64,000 nucleotides of DNA from Paramecium tetraurelia. Lineage: Eukaryota; Ciliophora; Oligohymenophorea; Peniculida; Parameciidae. Numbering within the stretch: the stretch's first letter is position 1; every line of letters starts with the position of its first letter. Positions 27,697-53,234 of the stretch are shown here, piece after piece. The stretch is taken from positions 373,342-437,341 of the forward strand of contig NW_001799289.1 of NCBI RefSeq assembly GCF_000165425.1, in the 5' to 3' direction. Made by a program: the position numbers and the translations under genes. Under the pieces are notes generated by a model. The model saw nothing but the letters and a program-made list of their open reading frames with translations, was not told the DNA's origin and ran no database searches.

Positions 27697-29439
27697 ATGA
27701 TCAAATCAGTCTAACATATAGAGGATAAATGTAACACTCTCGAAAATATTAGTACAAAGGACATTTATCAATTTAAATTCTTAGAATTCGACATTTTAGA
27801 AGAGATATTATTTTAAAAGTAAGAAGAAACTGCTGTTTCTTTACCTTGGGCAAAAACAATAATTGTTAATTTTTGGAATATCCCCAAAGAAAACTATACA
27901 TTGTTTAATTTATATGGAGGTATGAAAATCCTATTTGACATGGACATAATCAAGGATCTCTAAGAAGTTCAATTCAAGTTCTTTTCAAATGAAGATATCT
28001 AAGCATTGATTAAATTAAAATGGCTACAATCTGACAATACCAACTACTTTTATTTTGAAATACAAGAGGAGGTACAATTATATATTTTGAATCTATTTAG
28101 AATCAATATGAATTAACACTTTAATGGAGAGATCCCATCTAAAATGCTGAATGCTCAAGCTTAGAATTGGAGAGGTAGCTACTAAAGAGGAATCTTACTA
28201 AATTGTTAAATAAAATAGGTGATTATAGGTATTATGAAATAATGATAATATCTTAGTAATATCTATGATTAGTAAGAGTTATTTGATATGATTTTGGAGA
28301 ATCAATACGATACGATCTATGTTTACTTCCCTTCAATAATAAAGTTAAAAATCCATACTAAAATATTTGAAAATAGTGAAGAATAAGTTAGATCAGTAGA
28401 GTTGTTCATTCATAATGAATGGTTCAAGGAAAGATAGGATAATTTAATTGCCTAATTCGAGATATTGCATACTCAAATCTAAAGATCTATGATTGATAAT
28501 ACTGATGAAATAGTATTAGATTACGCCTTGATTTACGATGAAGAACAAATCAATTGTTCTCAATTAATGAGTAAGATCAATTCATTGATAATTAAAATAT
28601 TGCTAACAAATAATAAAAGAATTCAAACTATCTTATTGTCTCTGATGCCTCTGGAGATTCATTTTGAATTAGATATGAAGAGATAAGAACTAAATCTAGA
28701 TATCAATTTGCATCATGAGGATCCATAAGATATATATTAAGAAGGATTGATAATTTTACTATAAACAATCACAACTTGCAAATTGTTTTAATCTTTGAAG
28801 GTTGATATTCAATAGGAAGATGATTCAAATAATGTAAAATTTCAATTGTTCTCCTTCATCATGATGATTCATGAATTCCAATAGACTCTTATTAAAAAAG
28901 GAACTTTTACATACAATAATTATTCCTTGATTCCGAGATACAATTCAGTTTGTTCAAAAGGGGCAATGAATTATTTAATTTCAGAGAAGAAGTAAGCGAA
29001 ATGATGTTATTTTAGGTCGATTTATTCAATTTCTGATAAAGACTATCTTGATATTCAGAGAGAAATCGGATGCTTCATCCAATATCTGAGTTTTTATGCT
29101 AAGGAGAGTAGTTCAATTATAATTTCCTGTGATATGTGTGAGTTGAGCAATTCTAGTAAGTAATTCTACGATCAATTGATTGAATAATTAATAAAACAGA
29201 ATGGAATATTGGAATTCGGAATATTAGATAGTGGGAATCGAGATCAGAAATATTATGAAAGAGTAATCTAATAATTATTATTACCACTTATCAAATATTT
29301 TAGATTAAAGAAGAGGATGCTGACAACATTGTTGATGATAGATAAAAAATATCAGAGCAGAATGAGGTGGGAGAGTATAAAAGAACTGATTAATTATTTG
29401 CCAAATGAATATCAATGCTTGTTACATTAGTAAAATTGA
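27697..29439 (+). CDS. Unrecognised 561-residue protein
   Basis: Introns 28072-28100 (29 bases) and 28229-28256 (28 bases) are both needed; without them a TGA interrupts the frame. With them the sum is exactly 562 codons. The start at 27697 is the first ATG in the frame that continues. The protein is helical with beta-rich patches and no membrane segment. Distinct segments are SLPWAKTIIVNFWNIPKENY, LQWRDPIQNAECSSLELERQ, MIHEFQQTLIKKGTF and the C-terminal KKRMLTTLLMIDKKYQ. The last resembles the winged-helix tail of cullin-type proteins only superficially. I could not assign it. Confidence 0.65.
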
Positions 29440-29505
29440 ATAAAATGAAAAAAAATTAAATCCTTTTAAATAAATTATTAAAAAAAAGAAATAATTCCTT
29501 AAGAG

Positions 29506-29906
29506 ATGCCATCAAAGAGAAGAAATAATGGTCGTTCAAAGAAAAATAGAGGTCACGTCAAGCCAGTAACATGCTCAAATTGTTGCAGATTAGTCGGCAA
29601 AGATAAAGCCATCAAAAGATTCACAGTGAGAGACATTGTTGATGCATCATCAAAGAAAGACATTTTGGAAGCCTCTGCTTATGAATCCAAATAATAATAG
29701 TCAATTCCCAAATTATTTGACAAACTTCAAGTAGTCTTAATCTTTAAAGGTAGTATTGCATTTCTTGTGCCATCCATGCACGTATCGTTAGAGTGAGATC
29801 ATCTGAAGACAGAAAAATTCGTGTTATTGAAAGAAAACGACCTGTTTAATAATCAACATAAAAAAAAGATGCCCCAAAACCATAAGCTCCAGTTGCAGCT
29901 TAATGA
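29506..29906 (+). CDS. RPS26: 40S ribosomal protein eS26
   Basis: One 23-base intron (29731-29753) gives exactly 125 residues. The sequence begins [20 protein letters not shown] and carries the paired zinc-binding cysteines CSNC and YCISCAIH plus the basic [14 protein letters not shown]. Together these are diagnostic of eS26. It lies at the mRNA exit region of the small subunit. The Lys/Ala-rich tail (DAPKPQAPVAAQ) is a common variation. It is followed after about 116 bases by the eL21 gene on the same strand. Confidence 0.95.
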
Positions 29907-30022
29907 TATATCTAATACAAACATACATTATAAAATTTGAATTTCTTTCATTTATCAAGCATCTTGAATGCTTTTTGGGTATTTGTATAAATAATTTAAA
30001 AAAAAATTAATATCTTGAATCA

Positions 30023-30522
30023 ATGACACATAGTTATGGTTTGAAAAAGGGAACAAGAAGTAAGTTTGCAAAACCATTCAGAGGACATGGCAATATAAGC
30101 ATTCGTAAAACACTTTAAACATTCAGAAGAGGTTAATTATTATTATTACAAAAGGTGATTTCGTTGATATTTTGGTTGATGGAGCATAACATAAAGGAGT
30201 CCCCTTCCAATATTATCATGGACGAACAGCCAGAGTTTTCAATGTTAATCCAAGAGGAATTGGAGTCTCATTATAAAGAAGAGTAAGAGGAAGATATGTG
30301 GAGAAAAGATTTCATGTTAGAGCTGATCATTTGAGACCATCAAAATGCAGAGAGGAATTTGTTAAAAGAGTTTAAGTCAATGATAAGAAAAAGACTGAAG
30401 CTAATAAATTGAAATAACATATCTCTACTAAAAGACAACCTGTTTTACCAAGAAGTGCTGAAATTGTCAAACCAACAGCTACAGTCTTTTAACATCCAAA
30501 AGCATTTGTAGAAATCATTTGA
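30023..30522 (+). CDS. RPL21: 60S ribosomal protein eL21
   Basis: One 23-base intron (30132-30154) gives exactly 158 residues. Diagnostic segments are SYGLKKGTRSKFAKPFRGHG, TFRRGDFVDILVDGAQHKGV, YYHGRTARVFNV and VEKRFHVRADHLRPSKCREE, the last matching the family's conserved R-x-H-V-R...PS-x-C block. Length and spacing match eL21 of other eukaryotes. The gene is in tandem with eS26. Confidence 0.95.
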
Positions 30523-30849
30523 ATTATAATATCATAAGTATAATAATATAGTAATTTGACAAAAAATACTTTTAGATTTATTATAAATATTATTAAAATA
30601 ATGAGAGATTGGTTTTCATGACTTTTTTTAAGCTTTAATCTAAAATGAGCTTGAGATGTTGAGATAGAGATAGAATTTTATTTAAATAAGATTCATATAT
30701 CTTTCAGCTTTAGAGATTACCTTCATATCTATTTCTATAAATTATTAAAATATAAACAAGAAATAGAAGAATCCAGAGATTATTCAATTTATAAATTTAA
30801 TGAGGTTATTTATAAGTCAATTTAAACAGTTTTATTGGTATGATATAAT
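30523..30849. other. Convergent spacer
   Basis: About 330 AT-rich bases between the eL21 stop and the stop of coiled-coil gene A. No feature seen. Confidence 0.5.
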
Positions 30850-31725
30850 TCAAATTTATTAATCCAATTCTGTTTCATTATTTAAACTTCGATTTCTTCT
30901 ATTTTCTTCTTACAATCTCTTTTTCTCCGATTCAAATTCTTCTTTTAATAAAATATTCTTTTTTTATTCTTCTTCAAACTTATCTCTAATTTCATTTAAA
31001 TAAGCCATGTATGATTATAACATTTTTTATTGTCTATCAAAATTGTCTTTCAACTTTATAAGCTATTGCTAATACTTTTACTAAACTTCTTTGGCTTTAT
31101 CCTCTAATTCTGACTTTTCTTTAAGTTATTACTGCAATTTCAAAATTTGTTCTTAGCAAGCTTTTAATCTGTATTCACAAATTTCATTTCTTTCTTTTAA
31201 TTTATTTAGTTCATGCTATTTTTATTCCAATTTTATTTCCATTTATTGTTTTTCTTATTCCTTTTCAGAAATTTCAGATTTAGCAGATAAAAACAATTGT
31301 CTTTCAGTCTCCATATATTACTCAAATTCTTAAATAGTATTTTACAGCTTTTCATATGATTCCTTGTCAATATTGGTATTTGATAAATCTGTGATCCATT
31401 ATTTACATTCTGATAAAGACTATTATGATTAATTCATTAATATTTTTTCAATTTCAGCATTCATTAACTATGTTTATAATTTATTGTTTTCTTAAATAAG
31501 TTTATCAAAAGTCTTTTGTAAGGAATATTTAAATGTTTCCATTTCCCTTTCATGTTCCTAGATTTGTTTTTAATACATCTATTAGTCTTCTTAAGTCATT
31601 CGTTATACCTTTTCCAATTACTATTCAAAATTCAACTTTTGCAAAACAATCTCCCTCTTTAACTGTTCATTTTCTTTTTTGTATTATTCAAATTAAACAA
31701 TATAAAAGTCAACGCTTGGTTTCAT
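30850..31725 (-). CDS. Coiled-coil protein A, near copy of the 3' part of gene D
   Basis: A single open frame of exactly 291 residues runs from ATG 31725 to TGA 30852-30850. It is entirely Gln/Glu/Lys coiled coil (EHEREMETFKYSLQKTFDKL, LKEKSELEDKAKEVQQKYQQ). From about 31566 down to 30892 it is a near-identical, inverted copy of 41325-42010 in gene D. In the last 375 aligned bases I count about 21 mismatches, mostly conservative. Upstream of this block the match weakens but persists. Gene A lacks the N-terminal head (DLKEI...KCKERE) and the C-terminal exon of D, so it is either a shortened paralogue or a fragment that kept an open frame. Confidence 0.55.
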
Positions 31726-31899
31726 TTTAGCAAGCAATTTATAAATAATATGTTTAAGAAAACAAATTTTTGGTTAACAATAACTTTTTCTATTAAAACA
31801 AGTCTTGTATATTAATATATATTATCAATTTTATTATTTTAGTAGAAATTTAAAAAATAATAATTTAGAGACCAGATAAAAAATTGTTAAATTCTAAAT

Positions 31900-32445
31900 T
31901 ATATTTTTTTCAACCTAAATGCACCTTAGTATATTTGTATTCGATGTTTTATTTTTTACTAATTCTGATCATCATATTTTTCTTTAGCTAACTATAAAGT
32001 TGTTCCAAATGCATAATATGTTAGAAATCTCTTGAACCTTAGGTTTTTGTCCCCTTATCTGTAAGAATATGATTTACTATTGCTATTAATTTGTAAACTT
32101 ACATGTTAAAGTTCTCATCCAGTAGACTATTATAAGTTTCTGAATTCAAATAGATTGCTTAGAGTTCTGAAATGATTTAAACCCCTTATTCTTTAAAATT
32201 TTTAATTCTATCTTCTCTTAATATTATTAGAATATTTTATATCTCTAATATAATTCATTTAGATTATTCATAATTTTCAGAATCCTTTTATTTTTCAAAA
32301 AAATTCTTGGGATTGAGGAAATTGATAAAATCTTTATAAGTTGAACTTTTTATGATTCACTTAGTTTATAGTTAGTTCATATTCCAGCATTGCTTGAAAA
32401 TCTATCATTCTTTTCAAAATTATGTTTTCTTATTAAAATTTAAGT
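31900..32445 (-). pseudogene. Decayed C-terminal part of a gene F-like coiled-coil gene
   Basis: Past the stop of gene B the minus strand still shows blocks clearly related to the C-terminal region of gene F, in more than one frame and with an in-frame TGA. Examples are YKDFINFLNPKNFFEKQKDS against F's YKRFISFLPYKKSPKQKP, and IISELQAIYLNSETYNSLLD against IISELQTTYSNSDAIENLLN. The F membrane anchor is not found. This looks like the eroded end of the ancestral version of gene B. Confidence 0.6.
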
Positions 32446-33775
32446 TCATTATATCATAGAATAAATATATTATTATAATATATACTCTTCAAGGGATTTA
32501 TTTTATGTTGTTAATTGATTAATTGTTTCTCTCAATTATTATTTTTAGATTTCAAATTCTTCGTTCTACCTTCTTTTTTATATTTATTCATATTATTGGA
32601 TTTGTTCATTTTATTACTTTAATATGCAATCATTTTAAGCTTTTAATTTATCAATTGTTGAATCATATGTCTATCTCAATTATTAGGTTTAGAATTGAAA
32701 TTCTTCTTTCTCTTTTATGTTTTACATCTATAATTATTAATATTTTCGTTCTGATTCTTCCAAAGCCTTCTTGCAATTGAATAATTCAGATTCTTTAATC
32801 TAAAGTACTTTTTTGACTTTTTTCAATTCTTCTTTATATATAATTTGTTTTTTGTCACAAATATCTTTACCTATTTCGTTTTCTTCTCTCATTATTTGAG
32901 AATCCTTTTGGCATTTTTATAATAATTCTTAACATATTTTCAATTCATTCTAACATTTTTTCAATTAATCTTAATATTATTTCGATTCATCTATGTAACT
33001 CCTGCATTTTTATTTTTAATGGAGATTTATTTTTTCTAATTTATCCTAAATATATTCATTTTCTTCTTTCATCTCCTTCAATCTATAGTTCTATCTCTAT
33101 TTAAATTAGATGCAACTATATCTATATTCCAAAATTTTCAATTAATCCTGCAGTTGTTTAAGATTATCTTATGCTTCTTTCGATAATTCATTGATATCAT
33201 AACCTTGAATTTTAACTTCTTAGGAAGAAAAATTCAATTTTTAAACTTCTTATACTAAATCTTTTTGATATTTTTCTTCATTTTTATCTATATAATTTTA
33301 ATTAATTTTCTCCTAAAGGTTTTTGAAATCAGTAAAAACTTTTTCTTATTATATTTTTAATTATTCGTTGTTGAATATCAATTTATCTATATTGTTGTTA
33401 GACTGTTTTAATTGTTATCTTAAGTCATCTATTTCCTATTCCTTCAAATTAATACTTTTTTTAAATGATATTTAGTTTTATATCAACATTTATTCATAGT
33501 TTGCTATAATCTCTAATGTGTAACGTTTTTCATTATCTGCAAGTTATCTTAACCCCGCTAATTTATCTATGAAATTTTGTTTCAAAGTTTCTTGTTCTTG
33601 ATTATATTGCATTAATATTATTTAATGCTCTTTTTGTTTATCTTCAATGTATTTTTCACAATCTGTTTGGTACTTGGATAATTATTAATTGATTTATTTC
33701 ATTTTCTCTCTCCTTACATTTCTGTGTAATTATTTGTTAGATCTCCTTCAAGCCAAAGTCAGCACTTGATTGCAT
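32446..33775 (-). pseudogene. Coiled-coil gene B, disrupted paralogue of C and D
   Basis: An ATG at 33775 begins a head like that of gene D (FGLKEIQQIITQKCKERENE against FDLKEIEEVIKKKCKEREEE), but that frame stops about 30 codons on. The homologous sequence continues in another frame (LSKYQTDCEKYIEDKQKEH against LTKYKTECEKYIETIQKEH) that is open for 418 codons from an internal ATG at 33702 to the TGA at 32448-32446. Compared with D, the junction looks like a net loss of about five bases. The body is Gln/Lys/Glu coiled coil and merges downstream into F-like remnants. It is either a pseudogene or a shortened gene using the internal ATG. Confidence 0.55.
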
Positions 33776-36370
33776 TTTAAATAGATATCAATAAATAATA
33801 TGTTAAGAGAATCAAAAGTTGCTATACACTCTTTATTTCTATTAGAAATTTAACTTCCTATTATTAAATATATTCTTATTTATTATATTTTTTGGAAATG
33901 TTTAAAATTGTTTTTCAGATATGCAAGTTCAAAGTAATTGCAATATTTTTGGTTTATTTAGTATGAATTTATAAATATTTTTTGAACTTCTAAATAATTT
34001 AGACTATAATAATGTTTACAAGTGTTACCAACAATAGATTACGCCACAAAATTGTAAAAGACTCCATTAATACATTTGAATCATTTGATTTATATATTAT
34101 AAGATCTATTTTGAACAGTATAAGCAAAAATATTTCTTCAAACAAAATATTAACTTTAATTTAAATTTTTTGGTTGTTTTTATGTATTTATTTTAAAAAA
34201 TGTATAAAAATTTTTAGTTTGACTAATTTCATTAATTTAATGATTATAGCTTTTTCCATTGTATTATTTTTATATTTTTTAAATTTCAAAGGTTGTTGAA
34301 TTAATTAATTAAGTGTTTAGTGAATTATGAAAATAAAATAATTTGATTTGATTGTTATTTTTCGGTAGATATTTTAATAGGATAAAAATTATACATGATA
34401 AATCTGATTATTTTTTCGTTTTTAGATGCAGTTATTGAATTTTTGACATGGCAATAGCTTGATCAATTTTATGTTTTTAAATATCTTATCTAGAGATTTC
34501 GAAGTTATGCACATAAAGTATTTTAACTATTCATTACAAGTATTATAATCTAAAACCTTTTATTAACAGATAAAGAGTACTTAGAACAATCAGCATTTGG
34601 AAGAAAACCCCCAACTTATCACGTTATTGTGCAGACTTTTTTTAAGCTAAAATATTTCATATTAAAACTCTTTTAGAAAGGTTACTTTGGACTTAATGCA
34701 TTTTATACAGATTTCTTTATCAACCAATCAATCATCCTGTTTATTAATCAATTTGCATTATTAATTCTTAACTTCTTCTTGGAATTGCTAAATTTCTTAA
34801 TTTTAACCTATAAAATAGGTCTTATTTACTCTGAGAATTTCATAAAATGAACTATTTATAAAATTCGATAAAATATAGACAAATCGTCCATTTGGATTTG
34901 ATCTTAGTCATAACCTAAGTCTTGGCCAATCAACATAATATAGAAATTAGACCCAAAAAATAATATCTTTAAGAAATCAGATGAGCAATAAAGAAAAATA
35001 CTAAAATTTAAGAGCAAATTGAGATTTTAATTATAAAGAATTAAAAATCAAAGTAATATTGTCAAAGCTACAGCAATATGCTGCTAATTAGCCAGATTGA
35101 GAAGTAAGAAAACTCATTAATACTCTAGTAATTTGTTAAGATACTTTACAAAGCTTATGATATTAATGAGTAATGAAGCTCATTATTTAAAAAAAATATT
35201 ATATAGTTTGAAATATTCCAATAGTTTGATTTATTCTCAACCAAATAATTAATTTTTTTCTTTCCAAGCTAAGTAAAACTGTGGAAGTCGCAACAGATCC
35301 ACTCTTATAAAAGTATAAACTCCTTGTTTGAAATATTTCCATTCAAAACCATAACACGACAATAGGCATTCATTTTGTTTAGGTATGTCCCATATGTAGT
35401 CATATTTATTTAAAATTGACTTCTTCTAAGGAATCTTATCTAAGAAACTCTACAAAATTCATAAAATAAAGTGCAAATGTGAATAATGAATATTCTTTCC
35501 AGCAGTTTGAATAATATAAAACAAAAAAAATCTAAAAAATACTATATATTATATTTTTAAAGTAATGTAATACCACAAATAAATAAGCAAGTCCACAATT
35601 CATTTTCCCATCAGCTAACTACTTGAAGAAAAGTGAGCTGGAGTAGAATTCTGTCTTGACTGTACTATTTTTTATTAAATTTCTTCCTTTACAGTGTTTT
35701 TATTTCTATCTTCTATTATTAAGAATAGATATTGAACTTCTTTGTGCTTTCTTTTTGTAAATTATTAAGATCTTTTCTTTCAATTGGATAGAAGCTATTC
35801 ATTTTTTGTTTTTACATATAAATTCTGATTTTTAATTTCTATATTTATGGAAAGATGCTCCTTATCTTTTTAGTTATTTAACTTATCAAAGGTATAAATT
35901 CTATAAATCATTTATTGATAGTTAATTTTTTATCAAGTTTTGATTACCTGAAAATCTTAATAACTCATCTGTACCATTTTGCACATTTTTAGATATGCTA
36001 TGTGTCATCAAATAACATGTTATTTTTTATGAAGCATAATAATAGTAACCTTACTTCTCTTTTTACTTATAACCATGATATTAGAGTAATATACATCAAT
36101 AATGTAATTGACAAGAAATATTAAATCAAAAAGTGTAATATTATTTTCTATAATTGAGAATGTAGATATAAGTCTATAAATGTTGTAGATGATTAATTAC
36201 TCGAATGCTGTAAATAGATTGTAATTAAATAATAAAGTTTGATAAACCTAATTTATTATATAATAAATATGAGTACATTTAATAATCTAAGGATAGATTT
36301 TTAATAGAAATAGAAAGTCTTAAGCAACATTTGATTTTCTTAAACTTATTATTTTTAATTTCTGTCTAAA
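33776..36370. other. Long gene-poor AT-rich region
   Basis: About 2.6 kb of very AT-rich sequence between coiled-coil genes B (-) and C (+). The only coding-like island I find is on the minus strand at 35237-35458 (listed separately). The rest has no protein-like frame, RNA gene or obvious tandem repeat. Such a long spacer is unusual for a Paramecium macronuclear chromosome. Confidence 0.5.
35237..35458 (-). pseudogene. Isolated coding-like fragment, family unknown
   Basis: An open stretch of about 73 codons reads like real protein (YIWDIPKQNECLLSCYGFEW, GVYTFIRVDLLRLPQFYLAW) with Trp, Cys and Pro that random AT-rich DNA rarely gives. It is bounded by TGA at both ends, has no ATG, and I find no exons that splice to it. 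It is most likely a relic of a lost gene. Confidence 0.35.
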
Positions 36371-39300
36371 ATGCTACAGAAGGTTGACATTGACCTTAAT
36401 TAAGTCAATGAAACTATTAAACAGAAATGTATGGAAGAAATCATGAATTATCTCAACAAAGAATTATCTGAGTATCAGGCCAAATGTTAAAATTATATAT
36501 TAAAAATCCAATAAGAGCATGAGAAATTGCAAAATCAATATAGAGAAGACTCAGAATAATTTAGTAAAAGTCTAGTTTAGAAGTTGAGATCACTAAAGTC
36601 ACTTGTAGAAGAGGAAAAGAATAGCGCATTAGAATTAATAGAAAATTCTTAAAAGCATTTTTTAAAATAAGCACAAAGTTAATTTAACGATCATTTTACG
36701 GATAAAAGTTAACTGAAGGAAGAACTTTAAAAAAGAAATTAAGAATATGACAAATTAAAAAAAGACCTGGATAATCTTAAGTTTAGTAAAATTAATGAAA
36801 GTCAAAGCCTACAGAGGGCAATAGAAAAATAATAATTAGTTGAGAATAAATTGGAGGAACTTTAGATCACGTCACAAAATATAATTAATGAACTTAAAGA
36901 AAAAAATCAAAAATAATTGAAATAAGCTTAAGATGAATTTTAGAGATAACAAGATATTTACAAATAAAATTTAGACTAACTCAAATCAAGTAATATTGAA
37001 ACTTTATAATTTTTGTAAAAACTTTAAAATGAAAATTCAAGTTTATAAGAGCAAGTTAATACAGGATAGTCATAATTATAATATTAGAAAAAATAGTATG
37101 ATTAATAATTAATAAAATTTAAAAATGAAAAAGGTTTATTAGAACAATAAGCATTAAAAGCTTAAGCGGAGTACCAATAAATCATAGAATCTAGATAAAC
37201 ATTTTAAAATTAGCTTTAAGAAGAATAAGTTAAATTTAAAAAATAATAACAGGAATTAGTAAAAAGAGCAGAAGAAAATAGGATAAAACAAGAAGAATAA
37301 AAATAGAAAGAAATTTAAGAATAAGAGTAGATAGCTAAAAAAATTAAAGAAAACTATGAATAAATAAATGAAAAAATTTGTAATTTAGAATTTGAAAAAT
37401 AGAAAATTGAATAAGAATAATTAATTAAAGCGAATGCGAATGAAGCTTAAGATAAGAAAAATAGCTAAATGAACGAAACACTTTAGTAAAAAGAAANNNN
37501 NNNNNNNNNNNNNNNNNNNNNNNNNNNNNNNNNNNNNNNNNNNNNNNNNNNNNNNNNNNNNNNNNNNNNNNNNNNNNNNNNNNNNNNNNNNNNNNNNNNN
37601 NNNNNNNNNNNNNNNNNNNNNNNNNNNNNNNNNNNNNNNNNNNNNNNNNNNNNNNNNNNNNNNNNNNNNNNNNNNNNNNNNNNNNNNNNNNNNNNNNNNN
37701 NNNNNNNNNNNNNNNNNNNNNNNNNNNNNNNNNNNNNNNNNNNNNNNNNNNNNNNNNNNNNNNNNNNNNNNNNNNNNNNNNNNNNNNNNNNNNNNNNNNN
37801 NNNNNNNNNNNNNNNNNNNNNNNNNNNNNNNNNNNNNNNNNNNNNNNNNNNNNNNNNNNNNNNNNNNNNNNNNNNNNNNNNNNNNNNNNNNNNNNNNNNN
37901 NNNNNNNNNNNNNNNNNNNNNNNNNNNNNNNNNNNNNNNNNNNNNNNNNNNNNNNNNNNNNNNNNNNNNNNNNNNNNNNNNNNNNNNNNNNNNNNNNNNN
38001 NNNNNNNNNNNNNNNNNNNNNNNNNNNNNNNNNNNNNNNNNNNNNNNNNNNNNNNNNNNNNNNNNNNNNNNNNNNNNNNNNNNNNNNNNNNNNNNNNNNN
38101 NNNNNNNNNNNNNAAGATGACATTGAAACCTTAACCACATATGTTGAATCACTTGCTCATTAAGTTGTTGAACTCGAATTGACATACAAATAAACTGAAG
38201 ATGAGCTCTCATAAACAATAGTTACGAAAACTGAATATGAGCATTTGCTTAAAACTGTAAAGGAAGAATTAGAAAAAGACAACAAAGACAATGAACTCTT
38301 AATGCACTCAGGATCAATAGAACAAAGAAATGATATAAAATTTTGTTACATAAAACAAAAGAACAAAATAAAACAATTGATAGTTTGAATTCGGAAATGT
38401 AGAGTTAAGCTGAAAAACTTTAAATATTGGATAATAAAGTTGCCGAATTAAAATTAAAAGTTAATGAAGCTAAATAATAAGAGAGTTAAGCAAAAGAAAA
38501 TTTAAAAGAGTATTAAATACAGCTTGAAAATGAACAAAAGAATTTTGAATAAAAAATGCTTGAATTATAAAACAAAGCCAAAGAAGATTTGGAAATGTTA
38601 GCGAGAGAAAATACCAATCTTTCTTAATCATAATAAGAGGAGTATTAAAAAACGCTTGAAGATTTGAAAGAACAATATTAGAAAGAACAAAATGAATTAG
38701 AACAATAAGTAAAAGAAGCTGATTCTAAATATATAAATATCAACACAAAATATAAAGAAACGGAAGAGGCTCTCAAAAAAACATAAGAAATGAAACAAAA
38801 GTGTTAGGAAAAGCTCAAAAAATAAAAGGAGGAATATGAAAAAGAAAAAAGTCTGTTTGAATAAAAAGTATAACAAGTTGATAATGAAGTTGAGAAACTC
38901 AAGGTGTTAAACAAAGATACTGAAGAAGAGCTTCAGAAAACAAGAGAAGGTAAATAAAAATATTAGGAGTAGCTTAAAACTTACAAAGAAAAATTTGAAT
39001 AAGAAAGATAGTAATTAGAAGAACAAATAAAAAAAGCTGATGCTGAAGTTGAAAAAATCAATAAATAAAACTATGAAACTGAATTAGAGCATAGTACAGC
39101 TAAAAATCAGAAAGAACTTTATTAATAATAGCTTGAAAAATAAAGGGAGTAATTTGTTTCAAAAATACTTGAAATAGAAAAAGCCAAAGAAAATTTAGAA
39201 AAGAAAGTATTAGAAAATACCAAAGATATTTAATAGTAGCAGGAGCATGATTAAGATAAATATTCTAAATTGATTGAAGATTTGAAAAAAAAATTTGAAG

Positions 39301-39716
39301 AAGAAAAATTAAAATTATAAAAGAATATCCAAGAAGCCAAAGAAAAGGAAAAGGAAGCCTAAGATAAGGAAAAGGAAGCCACAAGTAGTTTAGAAGAGAA
39401 CAAGCGATAGCTTTTAGGTTTAAAAAATAAATACGAACCACAATAATAGGATGAAGAAAACTATTAATTAACTACAGCATTCAACAATATTCGAAAGGAA
39501 CTATAGAAATTTGATATATCTGTAATTGATGATTAAAATAAAAATGAAGAAGCTATGATGTATTAAAATATTCTATCCTATTTAGGTAATAAACAGAAAG
39601 AGTTTAAGAATAAACCATATAATAAGAATAATAAGTATAATAAGTATAAAATTAAAATACTTAAATACACCATTATATAGAGAACCATAATATTATATAA
39701 TGTTTAGAGGAAATGA
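36371..39716 (+). CDS. Coiled-coil protein C (large, interrupted by assembly gap)
   Basis: ATG 36371 begins LQKVDIDLNQVNETIKQKCM, the same head pattern as B and D. The frame is open to the N run at 37497-38113 and is open again after it, ending at TGA 39714-39716. Near 38350 the frame shifts; a very short 17-base intron (GTTACA...AAAG) would join the two halves, otherwise it is a one-base error. Excluding the gap there are about 900 codons, all Gln/Lys/Glu coiled coil (for example DLKEQYQKEQNELEQQVKEA) with a short internal repeat EKEKEAQDKEKEA. Long coiled-coil proteins of this kind form cytoskeletal fibres or tethers in ciliates; the role here is unknown. Confidence 0.6.
37497..38113. other. 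Assembly gap (run of N)
   Basis: 617 undetermined bases inside coiled-coil gene C. The flanks are both coiled-coil coding sequence and the locus contains near-identical paralogues, so the gap was probably caused by repeats. Its true length is unknown. The long X-filled reading frames across it are artefacts. Confidence 0.95.
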
Positions 39717-40725
39717 AAAATAAAATTAAGAGAACCAATTTGGATTTAGAAAATTAATGTTAAGGAATAATTATGTAGTTAAATATCCAAGTAATGAATT
39801 AACATATTATTATTAGAAATATTTGTAATGAAGTTAATTAATGCCCTTAAAGCATGAATATTTATAATCTTATCAAATATTATTCCTAAAATACATTGTA
39901 ATTTTAATTCTTGAAAATCATCAAGTAAATCCATCTGATCCAAAGCATTTACTCAAATGTTAAATTTGACATAAGATTATACTGTTACTTAATTTAATTG
40001 AGAGTTAGTGAACCTTCCCAAATTTTTGCTTTATTCAATATAACTTGATTGTATTTATCTGCAATATCAAGTCTGAGATGATACTCCCTCCAGAATTATG
40101 ACTCTCCTTGTCATTCTGAGAAACATTATCTACCCCCTAACAAATATTATTATGTTGTGTATATGCCCTTCTTAGATATTAATTAGGTGGTTTTAAATAT
40201 TTAATATTAAAAATAATTTGTTTATTCATAACTCGATAAATTAACCGGAAATAATCAAAAAAAAGCAATAGCAAAAAGAACGTTTTGTTATTGAACTAGT
40301 CAATATTTGTTCTTATTCTTATTGAAGATGCCATTATTAAAACAATCTTGAAAGATTAAATTTTCTTTTTTTCGAGTATTTGTTGTATGCTGATATTTCA
40401 CTTTTGATTTGAGAAGCAATCTATGAAATTTGTAGATGATAAATTTATTGAATGCTCTAAATTAAATGAGAACATAATAATAATTAGATGTTATTATATA
40501 ATATCTATTTATCAGGCACAATATTAACCTGAAGCTTTGAGTAAATGTTCTTTTGAAATATTGATGAATTAGTTAGATAGGGTATTAAACTTTTTAATAT
40601 AATAAAAATAATCATATTCAATAATATAAAAGATTTTTTCATATTAATAGAATTCCAAAATTTAAAGCTAATTAGATTCCTTTGCAATATCATAAATTAA
40701 ATTAAATAATACATTTTTGTATAAA
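39717..40725 (-). other. Spacer between C and D with minus-strand coding-like remnants
   Basis: In about 1 kb between the plus-strand genes C and D, the minus strand shows broken protein-like pieces in different frames around 39720-40140 (QNDKESHNSGGSIISDLILQ, NKAKIWEGSLTLNQIKQQYN, LDQMDLLDDFQELKLQCILG). TGA codons lie between them and no start is visible. They may belong to one decayed gene; I do not recognise it. The rest (40140-40725) is plain AT-rich sequence. Confidence 0.35.
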
Positions 40726-42415
40726 ATGTAGTAGTAGGCTGAGTTTGATCTGAAGGAGATAGAAGAAGTCATCAAAAAGAAGTGTAAGGAGAGAGAGGAA
40801 GAGATCTCAAAGCAAGTTAATGATGAATTAACTAAGTACAAAACAGAATGTGAAAAATACATAGAAACAATACAAAAAGAGCATGAAAGAATATAAAAGG
40901 AATATGGATAAGAATAAGAAAAATTTAATAAATCATTAAAGGAGAAGATCAACTAAGTTAAGGCACTTGTGGATACTGAAAAGAATAACACTAAAAAATT
41001 GATAGCCAATGCTCAATAAAAAGTTGTTGAGATCACACAAAGCTCATTTGATAGTTTAGTTTAAGTTAAGGATTAAGAAATAGAAAACTTAAAAAAAGAA
41101 CAATAAAAGTTATAAATCTAGATAGAACAATTAGAAAAGGAAAGGTAAGAACAAAATGCTTAAATTGAACAATAAAATATAGACAAAGGAAAGTTAAGGA
41201 AGGAGATTGATCATTTAACAATTGATTTTAAAAAAGCATCTGAACAGAAACATTTAGAGGCTTAAGAAGAAATAAAGAAAAACGTCAGATTAATCTAAGA
41301 AGACTATTAAAAGATGAATTAAAAACAAATATAAGAACATGAAAGGGATATGGAATCATTTAAACATTCCTTACAAAAGACTATTGATAAACTTATTTAA
41401 GAAAACAATAAATTATAAACATAATTAACGAATGCTGAAATTGAAAAAATATAAATGAATTAATCCTAATAGTCTTTAACAGAATGTAAATAATGTGTCC
41501 AAGATCTATCAAATTCCAATCTTGATAAAGAGTCTTATGAGTTACTGTAAAATACTATTAAAGAATATGAATAATCAGTTCAAGATATGGAGACTGAAAG
41601 AAAAATGTTTTTGTCTGCTAAATCTGAAATTTCTGAAAAGGAATAAGAAAAAAAATAGATGGAAATGAAATTGGAATAAAAATAGCATGGACTGAATAAA
41701 TTAAAAGAAAGAAATGAAATTTGTGCGAAAAACTTAAAAGCATGCTAAGAACAAATTTTGAAATTACAGTAATAACTTAAAGAAAAGTCAGAATTAGAGG
41801 ATAAAGCCAAAGAAGCTTAGTAAAAGTATTAGCAATAGCTTATAAAGTTGAAAGACAATTTTGATAAACAATAAAAAGAGTTATAATCATACATGGCTTA
41901 ATTAAATGAAATTAAAGACAAGTTTGAAGAAGAATAAAAAAAGAATATTTTATTAAAAGAAGAATTTGAATCGGAGAAAAAGAGATTGTAAGAAGAAAAT
42001 AAAAGAAATTAAGAGATTCTTTAAAAAAAACATGAAGAAGCAATTTTGTATTAAATTAACTCTAATTTAGATAATAAACCTAAAGAATCGAAAAAGAGAT
42101 ATTAGATTAAAGAGGAAAAATAGTTGAAATGGAATTGATAAAGCAAAAGGAAAGGCTCAAGCCAAATAATAATTAATTAAGCGAAGGTACACTTCATATA
42201 TAATTTTCATTAGAACAACTTCAAAATAAGTTATCAAAGATTGGTGAGCACTTGCATAATTATAGAAGAGCTATGACTTAAGGTTTATAAATCAAAGGTA
42301 ATAAATTAATTGAAAATAATTAGAATGCTTATTATCTGAAATTGGTTATTTTGAGAAGCAAGCATAAATGTATCCTATTGAGTCATTGTTGGATACTGGG
42401 ATAACATCCTATTGA
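40726..42415 (+). CDS. Coiled-coil protein D
   Basis: Introns 42048-42070 and 42298-42323 give exactly 546 residues from ATG 40726. The head (QQQAEFDLKEIEEVIKKKCK) is shared with B and C. The body is continuous Gln/Lys/Glu coiled coil, and the last exon is more varied (LSKIGEHLHNYRRAMTQGL, ECLLSEIGYFEKQAQMYPIE). The block 41325-42010 is nearly identical to gene A in reverse orientation. Many Gln are written TAA/TAG. The function is unknown, with a filament or scaffold role likely from composition. Intact splice sites and an exact codon count suggest a live gene. Confidence 0.7.
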
Positions 42416-42918
42416 TAAATATATATCTAAATGAAAAAGTATTTATACGAATTATTTTTCATCGTTTCTTAATTTATAAAGACTTGTATTTCTATTTGAT
42501 AATAGGCTAACAAAAAAATTATCTAAACATTTCTCTTATAAAGATTATTAGGTAAACATATAATAAATTAAAATAATCTTAAAGTATTTTAAATTTCAAG
42601 GAGAACTATTACTGAGAAAAAATGTCTCTAGTAAATAAATACTAAATTTAAAGTTAATATTATTGAGATATAGAATAGAATTAAAAATATAAATAAATGT
42701 AAAGCTGAGTTTAAACTGAATAAGAAATCAAAAATCAGAATCTAAATAGCTAGAGAAGATAAAGGATTTGTCTAAGTAACTTCAAATGTTAAGGTTTGGA
42801 TATTATTCAACCTATAATGATTTATTCTATGTTTTATAAAATTCAATATATGACCTATAATTAATTAAGTAATAGAATTCTAATCGGCCAAATTTTTTGG
42901 TAGCTATTATTATTTTTA
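42416..42918. other. Spacer between D and E
   Basis: About 500 AT-rich bases with only short frames. Nothing recognised. Confidence 0.45.
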
Positions 42919-45307
42919 ATGCAAGATTCTGAACCAAGAGGTAGAGTCTCTATTGGTGGAAAGACTGATAAGTTTAGGATGGTGAAGTTGTCTCTGTCGT
43001 ATAAGGAGAAAATTGATTCAACATTGTATATTAGATTCATCAACAAAACATTAAATGAAGAGGTTTATAAGGTTTAAGAAATGAAGTAAGAGTAGTAGTT
43101 ATATACAATTGAACTAATTCTGAAAGAAAACTGCATCTATAAATACTATTACGACGCTCTTGATAATACAACTAAATTAAAACATACGGAGCTAGGGCGC
43201 AGATATTTTTAATTTGCTGAGACTGAAAAGATTTAAATTGATGAATGGAATAAAGTTTGGTGTCTCTACAGAATTCGTCCAAAGACTGATGAAATATTTA
43301 AGGCTTATTAGATTTAGGTAAAAAATTTACAAGATGGGAAATATTTTGAACTAAGAAAATCAGCAATTGTATTTCCAGCAAAGGATTTTTATGAAAACAC
43401 AGGTGATAGTATGTCTTAAGAGATTATACAATTTTCATTAAGATCAAAAATAGATGAGAAAGAGGATTTGAGCTCTTAAATTCAAATTTAGAATATAAAT
43501 AAATTTAAGATGAATTGTTTTTTTATTGAAATTGATCTGCAGTTATTTCCAAAATAAAAGTAGGATTAAATTAAAAAGTTTTTTATAGGTATTTGAGACA
43601 AATTAAGAATGGAATTTTAGTTAAAAAATTTAGATATTAGAAGAATAAATTAAAGAAAGAGATAAAGGGATATAAGAATTAGAACAAGAAAATGGCGAAT
43701 TGAAGTTTAAGTAAAAGGACAAAGATTAGCGTTTATCTGAATTACAAATTGAAATTATAAAAAAAGATGAACTTCATAGAAAAGAAATAAACAACCTCAT
43801 TTATAAATATGAGTAAGAAAAAGCTTCTCTTTCTATCCTTCATTGTTAAGAAACCAATAATTTAACGGTGGAATTTGATAAAAAATTTAAACGTCTTTCA
43901 GATCAAGTTACTGAATGGAATAATTAGTACAATTCAATTTAACAAGATTTCAATTAATTTTAATTAAATGCTACCAAAAGGATAGCCGAATATATTGAGA
44001 AACTTTAAGAATCATAAACAACCGTTCAAATCTAGGAACTTTAATTGATTTAATTTAAAAACAATAATTAAAATGTTGTTGAAGATGATAGCCAAATTAA
44101 TGATAAAATATTTATAACATTACTTGATGGTGATTAAAAAGCATCCAAAGAAGAGATTACTTAAATGAATAGTTTACAAGAAACCCTCAAATAGTATAAG
44201 GACAATCTTCATGAATTGTAAATTAAGAATCAAGAGATCGAATCAGAACTTTCAAAGAAAGATAGATTACAATCAGCATTTAAGGTAAAGATCAATGAGT
44301 AGATTAAAAAATACAACACTTGTATGTTAAGTTTGGAAAATACATAAAATCAACTTCAAGATTATATTCAGAAAAATGAAGTTTTACAACAAAATAATTT
44401 ACATGAGGTTGAACGTTATAAAAAGCTCTAAAATGTATTAGAAATAATTAAAGGGAAATATAAGGATCTTTAGAAATATAAAGAATAATATTAAGAGCTA
44501 TTGGATAGGTATGAAAAACAAACACAATAATTTGTATAATTAGAGAATTAAAAGAGAATCGATGATATGGAATTCGAAAAGCAAATAACAGAAAAATCCA
44601 ATTAAATTCAGTCAATGGCTTGCGAATATCAAAAATAAATCACATAAACTTAGTAAGAAAATTAATAATTATTGGAAAATTAACATGCAGAATAACTTAT
44701 AAGATTGAAGTAGAAACATGATCTTTTTATGCAATTTTCGGAAGGGATTTTAGAGAATGTGCTTACAGAAATTTTAAAACCTTATTAAGTTCATCAAGCA
44801 ACATTCTCAAGAAAGTTATCATCTAATTTAGATAGTGAAATACGTAATATTAAGTGTTTAATGCTTATAAATTTTGAAACAGCTATAAACATTGCTGCGG
44901 ATGGAATTAATATCATCACAAACAATTCATTCAATAATTTGAAGGAAGATTTAATTAATATCCATAGCCAAATCATTTAGTAGATTTAGATATATAAAGA
45001 AAATATAGACTTTTCAACTATGAAATGTTTGTTATCGCTTATGAATGAGTTTTAACAAAAAATAATAGAAATTAAAAATTTCGCATATTCAGTAGAAAAC
45101 ATGTTATAATAGGACTAAGATTAGATTGATCTAATTAATAATAATTGTTAAACTCTGGAAAAAATATTAGATATTGTGATCAAATTAAATAGTGTTTTAG
45201 AAAGAAAAAACGATGAATTAACTATACTATTAGAAAATTAAGAAATCGTTATTTAAGCATTTGAACATTTCCGATAAAAATCATTAAGTCTTATTGATAG
45301 CATGTGA
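42919..45307 (+). CDS. Coiled-coil protein E with N-terminal beta-rich (CBM20-like) domain
   Basis: One 19-base intron (43589-43607) gives exactly 789 residues. The first 230 residues are not coiled coil but beta-rich: FRMVKLSLSYKEKIDSTLYI, TIELILKENCIYKYYYDALD, GRRYFQFAETEKI and DEWNKVWCLYRI. The order of a Y-K-Y-x-Y strand, then R-x-F, then W-N-x-x-W resembles the starch-binding CBM20 fold and recurs in gene F; this is an inference from pattern. The rest is coiled coil, ending in a helical region with few Gln (CLMLINFETAINIAADGINI). No membrane anchor is present, unlike F. Confidence 0.65.
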
Positions 45308-45657
45308 TTAAAATCGATTTAGAATCAAAATGATAATTTATATAATACATATCTATTCCATTTTTATAATTCAAATTATTTTTAAATATGCGATTTAGAT
45401 GAATAGTTCATGGAAATTTGTTTTAATTATAGGATAATTTCAATAAAATACAATTTCAGCTAAATCTTAGATTATAAATTAATGGATCATTGGCAGATTT
45501 TTTTCAATTCTTGAGAATTTACAATAAGCCTATTGTAAAATAATAATTTGAATAAAATTTTAGCTAAAATATTAAATAATAATGTAGAGATGACTTAATT
45601 AATGATATATCCAAATTATAAAAATAACTTTTATTAAATATTTCAACAATTATTATT
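45308..45657. other. Convergent spacer between E and F
   Basis: About 350 AT-rich bases between two converging gene ends. Nothing recognised. Confidence 0.5.
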
Positions 45658-48149
45658 TCATATTAGCAAGTTTTGATATTTTAAGAAAACTATTATTAAT
45701 ATTAATATAATTAAAGCTGATAGTACATTCATTTTATCGAACCATTTATTTTATTCTTTATTAACTTAATATTTCTTATTTTCTTATGATTATTTTATTA
45801 GAATCGTAACATCTTCCTAAAGCTAATTATTAAGTTATTCTAAATCAGTGATATTTTAAATATCTTTTGATTCTTAGTTTCTAATGCAGTTTTTTGAATT
45901 AATCTAATCTAATATTACGCTTAATTTGCAAATTTACTTCAAAAAGTTCTCATTAAGTAGATTTTCAATAGCATCTGAATTAGAATAGGTTGTCTACAGT
46001 TCTGATATAATTTCAACGCATAAATCGTTATGATTTTGTATTTTATGTTCTTATACTTATAGTAATTGCGTAGATATTTCTTAAATTATTTATTAAGATT
46101 ATCGATAAGCATCTAATACAGGTTTTTATTTGGGAGATTTCTTATAAGGTAAAAAACTGATAAATCTTTTATAAAATTCATTTTTAGTAGGAATTTCATT
46201 TAGAATTCTTTCATATTTTTGATTTGCTTTAAAATCCATCTTTTATCTTTATTGTTAATTTGCTTTTTTTTACAATTCTTTTTAATTTTCTTCTTATTAA
46301 TCTAGTTTTTATTAGATTTATGCATGCATCTCATTCATTGTTTTATCATAATCTTATTTCAATTGTAAGATATCGGATTCAAATTTTACTTACTAATCTT
46401 TATTTTTTTGTTACTCTTCTTCAAATTTTTTTTCCAAATCTTCCAATGCCTTCCGATACTTGTTTAATTCATCTTCTTACTTTTTCAATTTACTTTAGAC
46501 AAATTTTAGTTATTCTTAATATCGATTTTATTTATCCTCTCTAATATTTATTTCTATTTGCTTTTCTTCGCCCATTATTTGAGACTCCTATTGGCATTTT
46601 TCTAGTAATTCTTAACATTTTTTCAATTCGTCTATGGAACTAATGCATTTTTATTTTATTTGAAGATTTTTTTTTCCTAATCTTTCCTTAATACATTCAT
46701 TTTCTTCTTTCATTTCGACAACTTTAGATTCATAAATTTTCAATCGTTTCTGAAGTTCTTGAAGATTGTTTTATTCTTCTTCGGAAAATTGATTGAAATC
46801 TTCTGCTTGAATTGTAATTTCTTCAGAAGAAAAGTTAACGTTTTTATATTCTAATTCCATCAACTTTTGATTAGCTTCTTCATATTATGTGATATATTAT
46901 TAAATAATCTTCTCTGAATATTGTTTGAAATTATCAAACTCAATTTTATTCTAGTTTTTCAACTGTTCAAGTATTTCCTTATTTTCAGACATAAATTTAT
47001 TCATTTCTTCTTTATGCTTTAATTATATATCAATATTTTCTTATTCTAATCTAATTCTGTCCATTTCATTTTTAGACTCTAATTACTTTAGTCTACTTTC
47101 ATAATAATTTTATTTATCTTGCAAATACTATTTTTTTTATTTATTTTAATTTTTAAAAATTTCCAATTCTTGTTTCTTTTCTTCCAATTCTTATTTCTTT
47201 TTATCCAATTCTTTTTCCTTTTCTTCCAATTCTAGTTTCAAATTTTTCAATTCATATTTCTAATTTTTCGATTTTTGTTCCAAAGTTTCCATATCTTATT
47301 TCTTAAATTTCAATTCTTCTTCATATCTCTTAACCTCATCAAAAAGTCTTGAATAATTTTCTAATCTTCTTTTTACGTTGCTGTCTATCTTATATTCAAC
47401 AGAGATTAGATTTGAACTATGATTCTTTTGATCGTTAACATAAACTGAGCTTAAGTATTCATCGATCCTCTTGCTCAAGGATTCATCTATTTTCTGCTTT
47501 TCTGCCTCTTAATTAAAATTGATCGATTTTCTCACTTTTGGTTAATTATTCAATTCTAATTGAATTTAGATAAAACTCATTTATCTACTCTTCTAACCTT
47601 TGTCCCATTCTATGATTTCTTTACAACTCATCTTATTATTAGCATCTTTCTCTAGTTTAATCATATTGTTCTCATTATTTTCTTTTGTATAAATATAAAC
47701 CATATAACCTGAAAAGTTGATTAACTTTTCATCAATTAAACTATATTTGCACCATTATTTATTCCACTAATCTACTTCAAAAGGATCATCAGGGCTGTAT
47801 TAATAACCTCTAAAATATTTTTCACTGATAGTATCCTAATCATTCTTTTGACAATATTGATATCTATATTTGCTTTTCTACAAGACTTTTATTTTCGTTT
47901 AGTAAATCATGGATTCTTTATCTTTTTCATCTAACTCCATTTCGTACTCCCTATCAAGAGGAGGCTGATCACCATCTGATGGTCCATGCAAAAGTTTAAG
48001 AAATACTTGAACTAGAAATACAAATTTTATTTACAATTATTTTGAGCTTCTGGATTACTTTTTAGAATTTACTCTTGGCTCAGCTTGAGTTTAAAAGTAA
48101 TATTTGCAAAGGATCCAGTATTTGATCTTGATTTTGATCTTTCTTCCAT
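45658..48149 (-). CDS. Coiled-coil protein F with CBM20-like head and C-terminal membrane anchor
   Basis: One intron (48012-48034) gives exactly 822 residues from ATG 48149. The head (SFANITFKLKLSQEQILK, KIKVLQKSKYRYQYCQKN, EKYFRGYQYSP, DQWNKQWCKYSL) has the same layout as that of gene E. A coiled coil of about 450 residues follows (KKQELEEKKQELEIFKNQNK). The C-terminal region is FYKRFISFLPYKKS then IISELQTTYSNSDAIENLLN. The last 30 residues are a Trp-bounded hydrophobic helix (WFDKMNVLSALIILILIIVF) with a short tail, i.e. a tail-anchored protein. Golgin-type tethers share this plan of rod plus tail anchor, so a tethering role is possible. Relics of its C-terminal part lie beside gene B. Confidence 0.7.
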
Positions 48150-48212
48150 CATTATTTAATATGGATGTATCTAAATATTAAATGTCAATTATAAAATTAA
48201 TTAACATTTAAT

Positions 48213-49231
48213 ATGGGAAATTCATAAAATGGGAAGGAAGATATGGATTATGATTAAGTGCTAAAACACTTCAATTTTAATTAGGATATTAATCATTACC
48301 AAATAGGAAATGTTAAGATTTTTGAAGCCATTGAAAATAAGAATCAGAAAGTGTTTCAATTTAAGCGATTATGCTAATCAGACTAGTAATTGCAACAATT
48401 GAAACATCATTTCTAATAACGAAAACTATTAATAAATGACCACCTGGTCAGAGTGTTTTACGTAATGGCGAAAGAATCAGTTATGTGTTCAGATGCGAGT
48501 CATGTTGTAGTATTGGGAGAATACTTCTCAAATAGCTTATTTTCAGAACACGAATACAAGTACGATTGATGTGATGTTGATAGTTTGAATCAGAAGTTAA
48601 TTTTCAATGAATCTCGACTGTGGTTCATAATTTATTAAATAATCTAATGTTGCGCATATTTAGAGGGATAAGGCAAATACCATGGAGATTTGAGTATTCA
48701 ACATGTTTATTTAGATCTTGATGGGTCTGTTAAACTGATTGTATTACATTAATAATAAAAACAAGGAACATGATTTTATACCAGGAGGAATGAACCCATT
48801 TTAGAAGGCATTATACAATAATGAGTTTCATGCTTTTTCGCCTGAATTGTTGGGTTTATTGCAATAAGGAGATAAGGAGCACCAGTATGGGAAGATAGAC
48901 AATGCAACCCTAAATAAGACAGATGTGTTTTGCTTAGGATTGATGATTCTGGAATTAGCTTCGCAATTTCGTATATTTATTTATATGATAATTAGCAACC
49001 TAGCAATATTATGATTGGGAAGCAAAGTCTATGAATTATTAACAAATAATGAATGCCATTTAGTTTTTGCCCAATAGAGGGTATTCTACAGTATTGCAGA
49101 ATCTGTTGTTGCAGATGTGTTAGGAGGATTTAGGAGCGAGGCCTGGATTTCAAGAGATGAGGACTGGGCTGGCATCTTTGGAGAATGACATATTATCGCA
49201 TACAGCATTTTATAGAAGTCACATTAAATGA
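48213..49231 (+). CDS. Protein kinase-like protein lacking catalytic residues (pseudokinase)
   Basis: Introns 48560-48583, 48741-48765 and 48971-48995 give exactly 314 residues. The start MGNSQNGK is a good N-myristoylation signal. The fold is recognisable from YQIGNVKIFEAIENKNQKVF, a catalytic-loop equivalent HGDLSIQHVYLDLDG, an activation-segment end AFSPELLGLL and the helix-F region TDVFCLGLMILELAS. The catalytic loop has HGD with no Asn, the DFG motif is missing (KLIEHDF) and no clear glycine loop is seen, so it should not transfer phosphate. The first intron is 24 bases with in-frame TGAs. It probably acts as a membrane-bound scaffold; the partner is unknown. Confidence 0.75.
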
Positions 49232-49247
49232 TAATTATAATTATATT

Positions 49248-49659
49248 ATGAATTAAGTTGAACCTTTTGGCATTAGAGTAATACCTATTAAGTGGGTGTT
49301 AAAATTTGAGCCACCCATTATAGGGTTGGTTTACAAGCAGCATCAGAAGGAGAAGAAAAAGCATCTCTACTAGATTTCATTGAATAATCTGATATTTTTG
49401 ACAAATCCAGAAGACATTGTGAATCAAATAATTTATGAACATCCTGTTTATTTGAATAGGAAATTCATAAAGCATGAGCAAGTAATAGGATGTGTTTTTA
49501 TGAATCTAGCTCATCGGATTAGTGCGTAAATTGCTGGATTATAAAAGTCAGAAGTTATAGGAAATGGTAGAGTTTATGGAAGATCATTTGGTTGAGTATG
49601 ACGATGCAGATTCAGATTAGGAAGAAAAATACACAACTAATAAGAACTACTCTTTTTGA
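49248..49659 (+). CDS. CEP19-like centrosomal/basal-body protein
   Basis: One 28-base intron (49482-49509) gives exactly 127 residues. The layout matches CEP19: an N-terminal IRVIPIKWVLKFEPPIIGLV, equivalent to the family's R-x-x-P-P-x-I-x-L-x-Y; a central NNLIFLTNPEDIVNQIIYEH; then YLNRKFIKHEQLIGLVRKLL, like the family's helix with Q-L-x-x-L; and an acidic tail. CEP19 docks RABL2 to initiate intraflagellar transport at basal bodies, which suits a ciliate. The gene begins 16 bases after the pseudokinase stop. The assignment rests on pattern and length. Confidence 0.6.
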
Positions 49660-49735
49660 TTTTTAATTTTATATAATTAGCTGATACGTAAAATCTAAAT
49701 ATGTATTTAACTAATACAAAATATATATTCTTAAA

Positions 49736-49978
49736 TCAAAAGACAGAGCAACATTGTTGTTTTTCTGTGATTTTCACTTGATTGTATCGAAGATCTCTTT
49801 GTTACTGAATAATCAAATATCTCCATTTGTTTCTGGTTAGATTCTGCAAATCTCTCTCACTGCTGATGCTGCTGCGAGTCCTCAGCTTAGTCTAATTCCT
49901 GGATTCTTGGATTTCAGTTGAAAAGCTGACGTTTGGCTTTCTCGGACTTGCTGAATTTCTGAAACAAGATTTATTCAT
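49736..49978 (-). CDS. Small basic protein, uncertain
   Basis: An ATG-initiated frame of 80 residues under the ciliate code, rich in Ser, Arg and Asn (SFSTEIQESRNQTKLRTRSS, then WRYLIIQQQRDLRYNQ). It lies downstream of the proteasome gene on the same strand, 44 bases after that gene's stop. It is intronless. Composition is more protein-like than typical AT-rich shadow frames, but no homology is apparent. Confidence 0.4.
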
Positions 49979-50022
49979 TAAATTTGAAAATACTGGAATA
50001 TAATATTTATATGAATGTAAAC

Positions 50023-50746: not shown

Positions 50747-50906
50747 TATTTTAAATATTTTTAAGATTAGTATTAAATGGAACTTTATAATATATGTAGT
50801 ACAAATATATATTAAAATAATAATGAATAAATTCATAAAGATAGGCTAACCATTTAAATAGAAACCGGTTAGAATTTATATTAAGAAAGAGGACTTAAGT
50901 AGTTGC

Positions 50907-52104: not shown

Positions 52105-52321
52105 ATTCAAGAAAGATTTAATTACACAATTAATTCCTCTATACATTACGAATTTAAACACAAAAAATCTTAATACTTCTTATCAATATATTATCACTAA
52201 TTTATCAACTATTCAGTTTATTGGTTCCCATCATCCTCTCCAGGAGTGTTATCATCTGAATCAACTCAATTCGCATCATATACTTACTATCTACCAAAAG
52301 TACATTTGTATTGCATTATTT

Positions 52322-53180: not shown

Positions 53181-53234
53181 TGTGACAATTTCTTTAATAT
53201 TAATTTAATATATATATAAATAAAATTAAAATAT

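Follow-up and report, generated by a model that had tools for sequence, protein, structure and literature searches.

How did six coiled-coil genes or gene pieces come to lie side by side, in both orientations, in the genome of Paramecium tetraurelia, and do they form one family? They occupy positions 30850 to 48152 of a 64,000-nucleotide stretch of DNA (the window; contig C167, 373342-437341), with A and B on the minus strand, D, C, and E on the plus strand, and F on the minus strand. An earlier note on this DNA had taken them for six paralogues produced by a recent local expansion. Our analysis, which covered the window and one genome assembly (69.07 Mb, 231 contigs), makes it probable that the cluster records birth and death, with mosaic copies, of a rapidly changing coiled-coil gene at this locus, a scaffold function being suggested by the architecture of the proteins. 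Gene models in reading code 6 (TAA and TAG as Gln; all introns predicted, 19-26 bases, with GT...AG ends), traits that together with the sets of sister loci are consistent with Paramecium, bear out six coiled-coil frames on both strands, as does a 3.5-residue hydrophobic period in 8/8 rod segments tested (seven from the cluster and one from G76, a relative on contig C76; z 2.7-5.2). C, E, and F are open frames once short predicted introns are removed, A is open but truncated, B is frameshifted, and D is split by a gap.

Resemblance among such proteins might consist of nothing beyond a shared Gln/Lys/Glu composition and heptad pattern. Ten protein pieces (45 pairs) were compared by Smith-Waterman alignment, each pair against 60 shuffles that preserve heptad phase and local composition (within 70-residue blocks), with z >= 5 taken as exceeding the shuffles. 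Twelve pairs reached z >= 5.0: A-C (39.6), B tail-F (18.0), B-F (17.7), E-G76 (16.4), C-D (14.5), F-G76 (13.8), B-D (11.6), B-C (11.4), E-F (5.3), A-G76 (5.0), C-G76 (5.0), and F with a gene on contig C213 (5.4). For these pairs composition alone is ruled out. It stands for the other 33, which include A-D (4.4), A-F (3.9), E-C213 (3.9), A-E, C-E, D-E, C-F, and every pair with the 3' part of D. As an account of the cluster it is nevertheless extremely improbable, since five pairs of places inside the cluster also match as DNA at E < 1e-25. Comparison of the window with itself by blastn gave seven matches between cluster members, on both strands: A-C at 90.6% identity, F-B body at 64%, C-B head at 70%, F-B tail at 69%, and 5' ends at 72% (D-B), 72% (D-A), and 71% (B-A). 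A 29-base F-D stretch and internal repeats in D and B were also found. The observation in the earlier note largely holds, but the part of D after the gap exceeds z 3.5 in no pair, and that top value is against D's own first part.

Two kinds of head had been proposed, one common to B, C, and D and one, containing W-N-x-x-W, common to E and F. The first is well supported (blastp E = 2e-17 for B-C, 1e-9 for B-D, and 2e-15 for C-D; z 11.4-14.5), and the second is weakly so (blastp E = 2e-4; whole-protein z 5.3); the heads of E and F both end in D-x-W-N-K-x-W-C. The cluster nevertheless looks different from a division into these two groups: A shares a 0.7-kb tract with C, and B bridges the C/D head and the F body. 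Gene B (32446-33775, minus strand) starts at an ATG at 33775, changes frame near 33700, and continues as an open frame from 33702 to 32446. At blastp E 1e-3, residues 1-108 of this frame match C and D and residues 113-356 match F, and the two sets do not overlap. The F-type body (33329-32654) matches F at blastp E = 3e-26. A detached tail at 31968-32273 (minus strand) matches F 45803-46108 as DNA (68.6%); as protein its resemblance to F reaches over 31847-32377, with three TGA stops within (blastp E = 3e-16). A genome query with the F rod likewise retrieves B, including the tail at E = 7e-14. Judged by these matches, B is a mosaic of a C/D-type head with an F-type body and detached tail, and through it the short-head group (A-D) is connected with E and F.

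Gene A (30850-31725, minus strand; 291 amino acids in one open frame) is, by the same kind of evidence, a truncated relative of C and not merely another coiled coil. Its tract at 30892-31593 (minus strand) aligns with C 41296-42009 at 90.6% identity and covers 702 of the 876 bases of A. The borders are sharp: just outside, at C 41183-41262, only 46 of 80 columns are identical. Within the tract, differences number 8 in the last 240 columns versus 48 in the other 474 (Fisher P = 0.001). Synonymous (dS) and nonsynonymous (dN) divergence, estimated by the Nei-Gojobori method, repeats this pattern, with dS 0.17 and dN/dS 0.42 for A-C overall (233 codons) and dS 0.026 in the last third versus 0.24-0.26 elsewhere. 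The sharp borders and the low-divergence 3' part make partial gene conversion the likely cause of the tract, but a test on the longest identical run is marginal.

Gene D begins with a stretch of 5' flank and first codons (36258-36391, plus strand) common to the 5' ends of B (33755-33907) and A (31705-31855), at 70.7-72.3% DNA identity (E = 4e-6 to 4e-31); the D-B match extends to 36520. The part before the gap, at 36371-37496, encodes 375 amino acids. It is followed by 617 N (37497-38113), the only assembly gap in the cluster, and by a plus-strand coiled-coil frame at 38114-39716, read as the end of D, with a frame change near 38345 (a 17-nucleotide intron or a frameshift). A gap inside D raises the thought that the mosaic pattern is partly an artefact of assembly. 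Between the pieces of B and their best matches, however, the difference is about 28-36%, and A and C are 9% apart with indels, so that mistaking one copy for another in assembly is unlikely; we regard this explanation as very improbable. The decayed members and the single gap that the earlier note had described are present: B is frameshifted with a detached tail, and A is truncated.

The remaining genes are open in their predicted models. C (40726-42415, plus strand; 546 amino acids) has predicted introns at 42048-42070 and 42298-42323, after removal of which the frame is continuous. E (42919-45307, plus strand; 789 amino acids) has a predicted intron at 43589-43607, an alternative in-frame ATG at 42817, and a non-heptad head followed by a coiled coil. 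F (45658-48152, minus strand; 823 amino acids; predicted intron 48012-48034) has a non-heptad head, a coiled coil, and a C-terminal hydrophobic segment. A heptad period is lacking in the E, F, and G76 heads (z -1.0 to -0.1). As had been noted, no unrelated intact gene was recognized inside the cluster: eight open reading frames (ORFs) in or beside the intergenic spaces have no Pfam match at E <= 0.01 (one matches DUF4282 at E = 0.074). The 2.4 kb at 33900-36260 contain no recognized gene and match nothing else in the genome; five ORFs there were without a Pfam family at E 0.01. No further family copies were found in the window by tblastn at E 0.01.

The state of the locus elsewhere in the genome supports a local multiplication. 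The flanks of the cluster map to contig C76 on both sides, and window positions 30550-49020 correspond to C76:93245-106290, an interval free of gaps. There, between the common flanks, lies a single relative, G76, oriented like F. At two more distant sister loci, on C62 and C15, the latter interrupted by a gap of 4,194 bases, tblastn at E 1e-3 showed no relative. Genome searches, which score best candidates only, were made with C (as DNA and protein), pre-gap D, E, the F head, the F rod, G76, and the C213 gene, and not with A, B, or post-gap D. Queries with C, pre-gap D, and the F rod matched inside the cluster only. E retrieved G76, the F head retrieved a single weak relative, located on C213 (23% identity, E = 9e-4), G76 retrieved itself and E but not F, and the C213 gene retrieved itself alone. 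Birth and death as proposed is therefore borne out by homologous neighbors beyond chance with cluster-only matches, by damaged and mosaic copies (A and B) among open ones, and by fewer copies at the paralogous locus.

Beside G76, the C76 interval carries a TPR gene, a protein kinase gene, an EF-hand/calpain gene, and a gene termed Z, none of which has a counterpart that we found in the window's copy of the locus. TPR, kinase, and Z are also seen on C62 or C15. Candidate relics of the four genes within the cluster were considered and rejected. The matches (blastn E = 8e-7 to 0.009 and one tblastx at 0.003, under lenient scoring) are at noise level, as they are weak and most fall inside coiled-coil genes. 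Weak matches outside genes include a kinase match at 35748-35933 (E = 1e-6) and a Z match at 33846-33906 (E = 2e-5), which we do not claim as relics.

How old the copies are is less simply answered. The youngest divergences, A-C and the B-F body (dS 0.45, dN/dS 0.80), agree with the earlier description of the expansion as recent. The shared heads (dS 0.79 for B-C, 0.88 for C-D, and 1.28 for B-D) and the pairs E-F (1.51), F-G76 (1.72, F exon 2), and E-G76 (1.99) do not, with the reservation that dS of the old pairs is close to saturation; the values for the heads, E-F, and F-G76 lie within the spread of the flanking sister segments. That spread was taken from 24 segments of at least 70 residues shared by the window and C76, detected by tblastx at E 1e-15, a threshold that strongly diverged neighbors would escape; the frames were picked by lowest dN/dS, and some may be wrong. 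Over all 24 segments the medians are 76% identity, dS 0.78, and dN 0.13. One (38953-39255) is a chance match within the cluster, and the other 23, selected by detectable similarity, are 45-99% identical, with dN no higher than 0.45. Flanking dS ranges from 0.12 to 3.7. Neighboring sister segments also vary widely (dS 0.12-1.8 over 20922-30531 and 49131-55707), a variation that may reflect patchy gene conversion between sisters or wrong frame choice. That all the copies are recent is thus not shown.

These ages bear on an alternative in which the array is old: at least two copies would predate the last whole-genome duplication, all but one having disappeared from C76. The distances E-F, E-G76, and F-G76 are much the same (25-28% identity, dS 1.5-2.0), the head values fall within the flanking sister segment range, and G76 is tied to E, not F, in whole-genome searches. 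Set against this, a second relative was not found in the gap-free C76 interval, which retains TPR, kinase, and Z, and B-F and A-C are younger than most, though not all, flanking segments. We consider an old array possible but doubtful.

Several observations weigh against local expansion from a single gene after or around the duplication. With E, F, and G76 nearly equidistant, E and F may have existed as separate genes before it, and with head dS inside the flanking range, a post-duplication date for the heads is not established. The relation of F to G76 (26% identity, dN 0.80; E-G76, 28%, dN 0.78) rests on the shuffle test and on blastp (E = 2e-6): a tblastn search of C76 with F was empty at E 1e-3, whereas E matched, and in genome searches the F rod did not retrieve G76, nor G76 F. 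The choice of F as the counterpart of G76 rests mainly on orientation. Among the sister loci, the right border of C15 was not found and its gap interrupts the comparison, and the EF-hand/calpain gene occurs on C76 only, without a counterpart on C62 or C15. Inside the cluster, the longest identical run of A-C is marginal (P = 0.043), and membership of the 3' part of D in the family, judged from its sequence, is unproven.

With these points counted, we still prefer local, mosaic birth and death, for which the following course is proposed. The ancestor would have been a G76-like gene, with a head and a long coiled-coil rod, bordered by the ribosomal protein L21e gene on one side and by the right flank on the other. 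This locus copy would have multiplied in both orientations after or around the last whole-genome duplication. Recombination among the copies may then have joined a C/D-type head to the body and tail of an F-type gene, giving B, while A would be a head-less C-type gene, partly homogenized with C; the 5' flank is common to A, B, and D. B would later have decayed and A become truncated. TPR, kinase, and Z, kept on sister loci, would have been lost from the window's locus, and the EF-hand/calpain gene either lost from it or gained on C76.

Selection offers another way to read the mosaic. The cluster might be a recognition or conflict locus whose diversity is maintained by selection and generated by gene conversion and the swapping of heads. 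Mosaic genes, head exchange, the sharp-bordered A-C tract, and the strong divergence of E, F, and G76 would suit such a locus. Yet whole-pair dN/dS is 0.39-0.80 (0.39-0.55 for the B-C, C-D, and B-D heads and for E-F, F-G76, and E-G76) and exceeds 1 only in the last third of A-C, where 1.43 stands on one synonymous change; substitution in coiled-coil rods may be tolerable for structural reasons, and no Pfam family points to a surface or recognition protein. We therefore judge this account unlikely. Young, species-specific duplications have been described for Paramecium surface antigen genes (PMC9788069), which share with the cluster the aurelia complex, rapid evolution, and a reported pseudogene. 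As that source presents them, these are surface proteins, some with internal repeats, whereas the cluster encodes coiled-coil rods of no Pfam family.

What the heads might bind was approached through the C213 gene (C213:157140-158039), which has a weakly CBM20-like head, then a coiled-coil-like frame, then a 150-base gap. Its head, trimmed to 104 amino acids, matches Pfam CBM_20 (PF00686), the starch-binding domain, below threshold (17 bits versus a curated cutoff of 23.3; E = 0.005), with weaker AMPK1_CBM and CBM_48 matches; a longer, 337-amino-acid piece has no CBM_20 match. G76 matches only CBM_48 (E = 0.13), and the E and F heads have no CBM match in Pfam. Aligned by hhalign with seven CBM20 domains from this genome, the four heads reached a probability of 0.3% and E = 0.22, in a test of low power. 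Two AlphaFold2 models of the E head gave a mean predicted local distance difference test score of 42.8 and 45.5, so that the strands predicted are unreliable. Searches of the heads against solved structures gave no match by profile and chance-level matches otherwise (best E = 0.19). A CBM20 identity, prompted by the C213 match and a Y-K-Y strand pattern, thus found no support in Pfam or profile comparison, and a glycan-binding head is a guess. Genome-wide, Pfam CBM_20 matched 42 places at E <= 10, 35 of them above the cutoff; these places are exon pieces, not genes.

From architecture, C, E, and F most likely act in the cytoplasm as rod-like scaffolds or tethers. A predicted transmembrane segment (residues 800-818; 45676-45732, minus strand) probably anchors F in a membrane, and the head, at the opposite end of the rod, would be the part that binds; the best 19-residue mean hydropathy of F is 2.47 at residue 800 of 823, compared with at most 1.31 in the other nine pieces. 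Only F has a golgin-like plan of a long coiled coil with a C-terminal membrane anchor, as predicted from hydropathy and heptad period. In this it resembles the golgins, C-terminally anchored coiled-coil tethers (PMC4707255), but its second exon matches no Pfam family at E 0.01, and hence no known golgin domain such as GRIP. The SF-assemblin family was not matched by A, B, or pre-gap D (E up to 1) or by C, the E rod, F exon 2, or post-gap D (E up to 0.01). Synaptonemal complex proteins, as described in PMC8598163, similarly combine strong sequence divergence with a retained coiled-coil pattern; unlike them, the cluster genes show no evidence of a meiotic role.

Two features of the left flank may be recorded. 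The ribosomal protein L21e region (29388-30557) has similar DNA (80-92%) on C76, C15, C62, C16, C168, C154, C47, and C169. Histidine-kinase and response-regulator domains lie in two adjoining frames at 24722-27156 and are kept on C76 at 76-90% identity.

In titles and abstract openings, our literature search found no description of this cluster or family. The closest general precedent is the set of recent single-gene duplications in P. aurelia species, reported as extremely rare, with a median of 28 per genome (PMC10195154). Like those, the cluster would owe its copies to duplication other than that of the whole genome, against a background of paralogous blocks; gene conversion is described as frequent in these species (PMC10195154). 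Unlike those, as the source describes them, its four or five additional copies are gathered at a single place on both strands, some of them are mosaic, and only some are recent. More speculatively, and we think this somewhat unlikely, the locus could serve as a local workshop for genes. New coiled-coil tethers, free or membrane-anchored, would arise there through repeated inverted duplication, swaps between the two head types, and gene conversion. Their amino-acid divergence is some six times the neighboring sister-segment median (dN 0.80 versus 0.13), and selection on head binding might keep them diverse.

Paramecium genomes retain many whole-genome duplicates but, by the account in PMC10195154, have very few recent single-gene duplicates, a rule that the cluster would break. 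A coiled-coil gene and its likely sister copy are about a quarter identical here, compared with 45-99% for detectable neighbors. Since the array stands at one of two sister loci and a simpler state can be read on the other, the cause of the rule-breaking can be asked; relaxed dosage constraint, a recombination-prone site, and selection for variety are the candidates.

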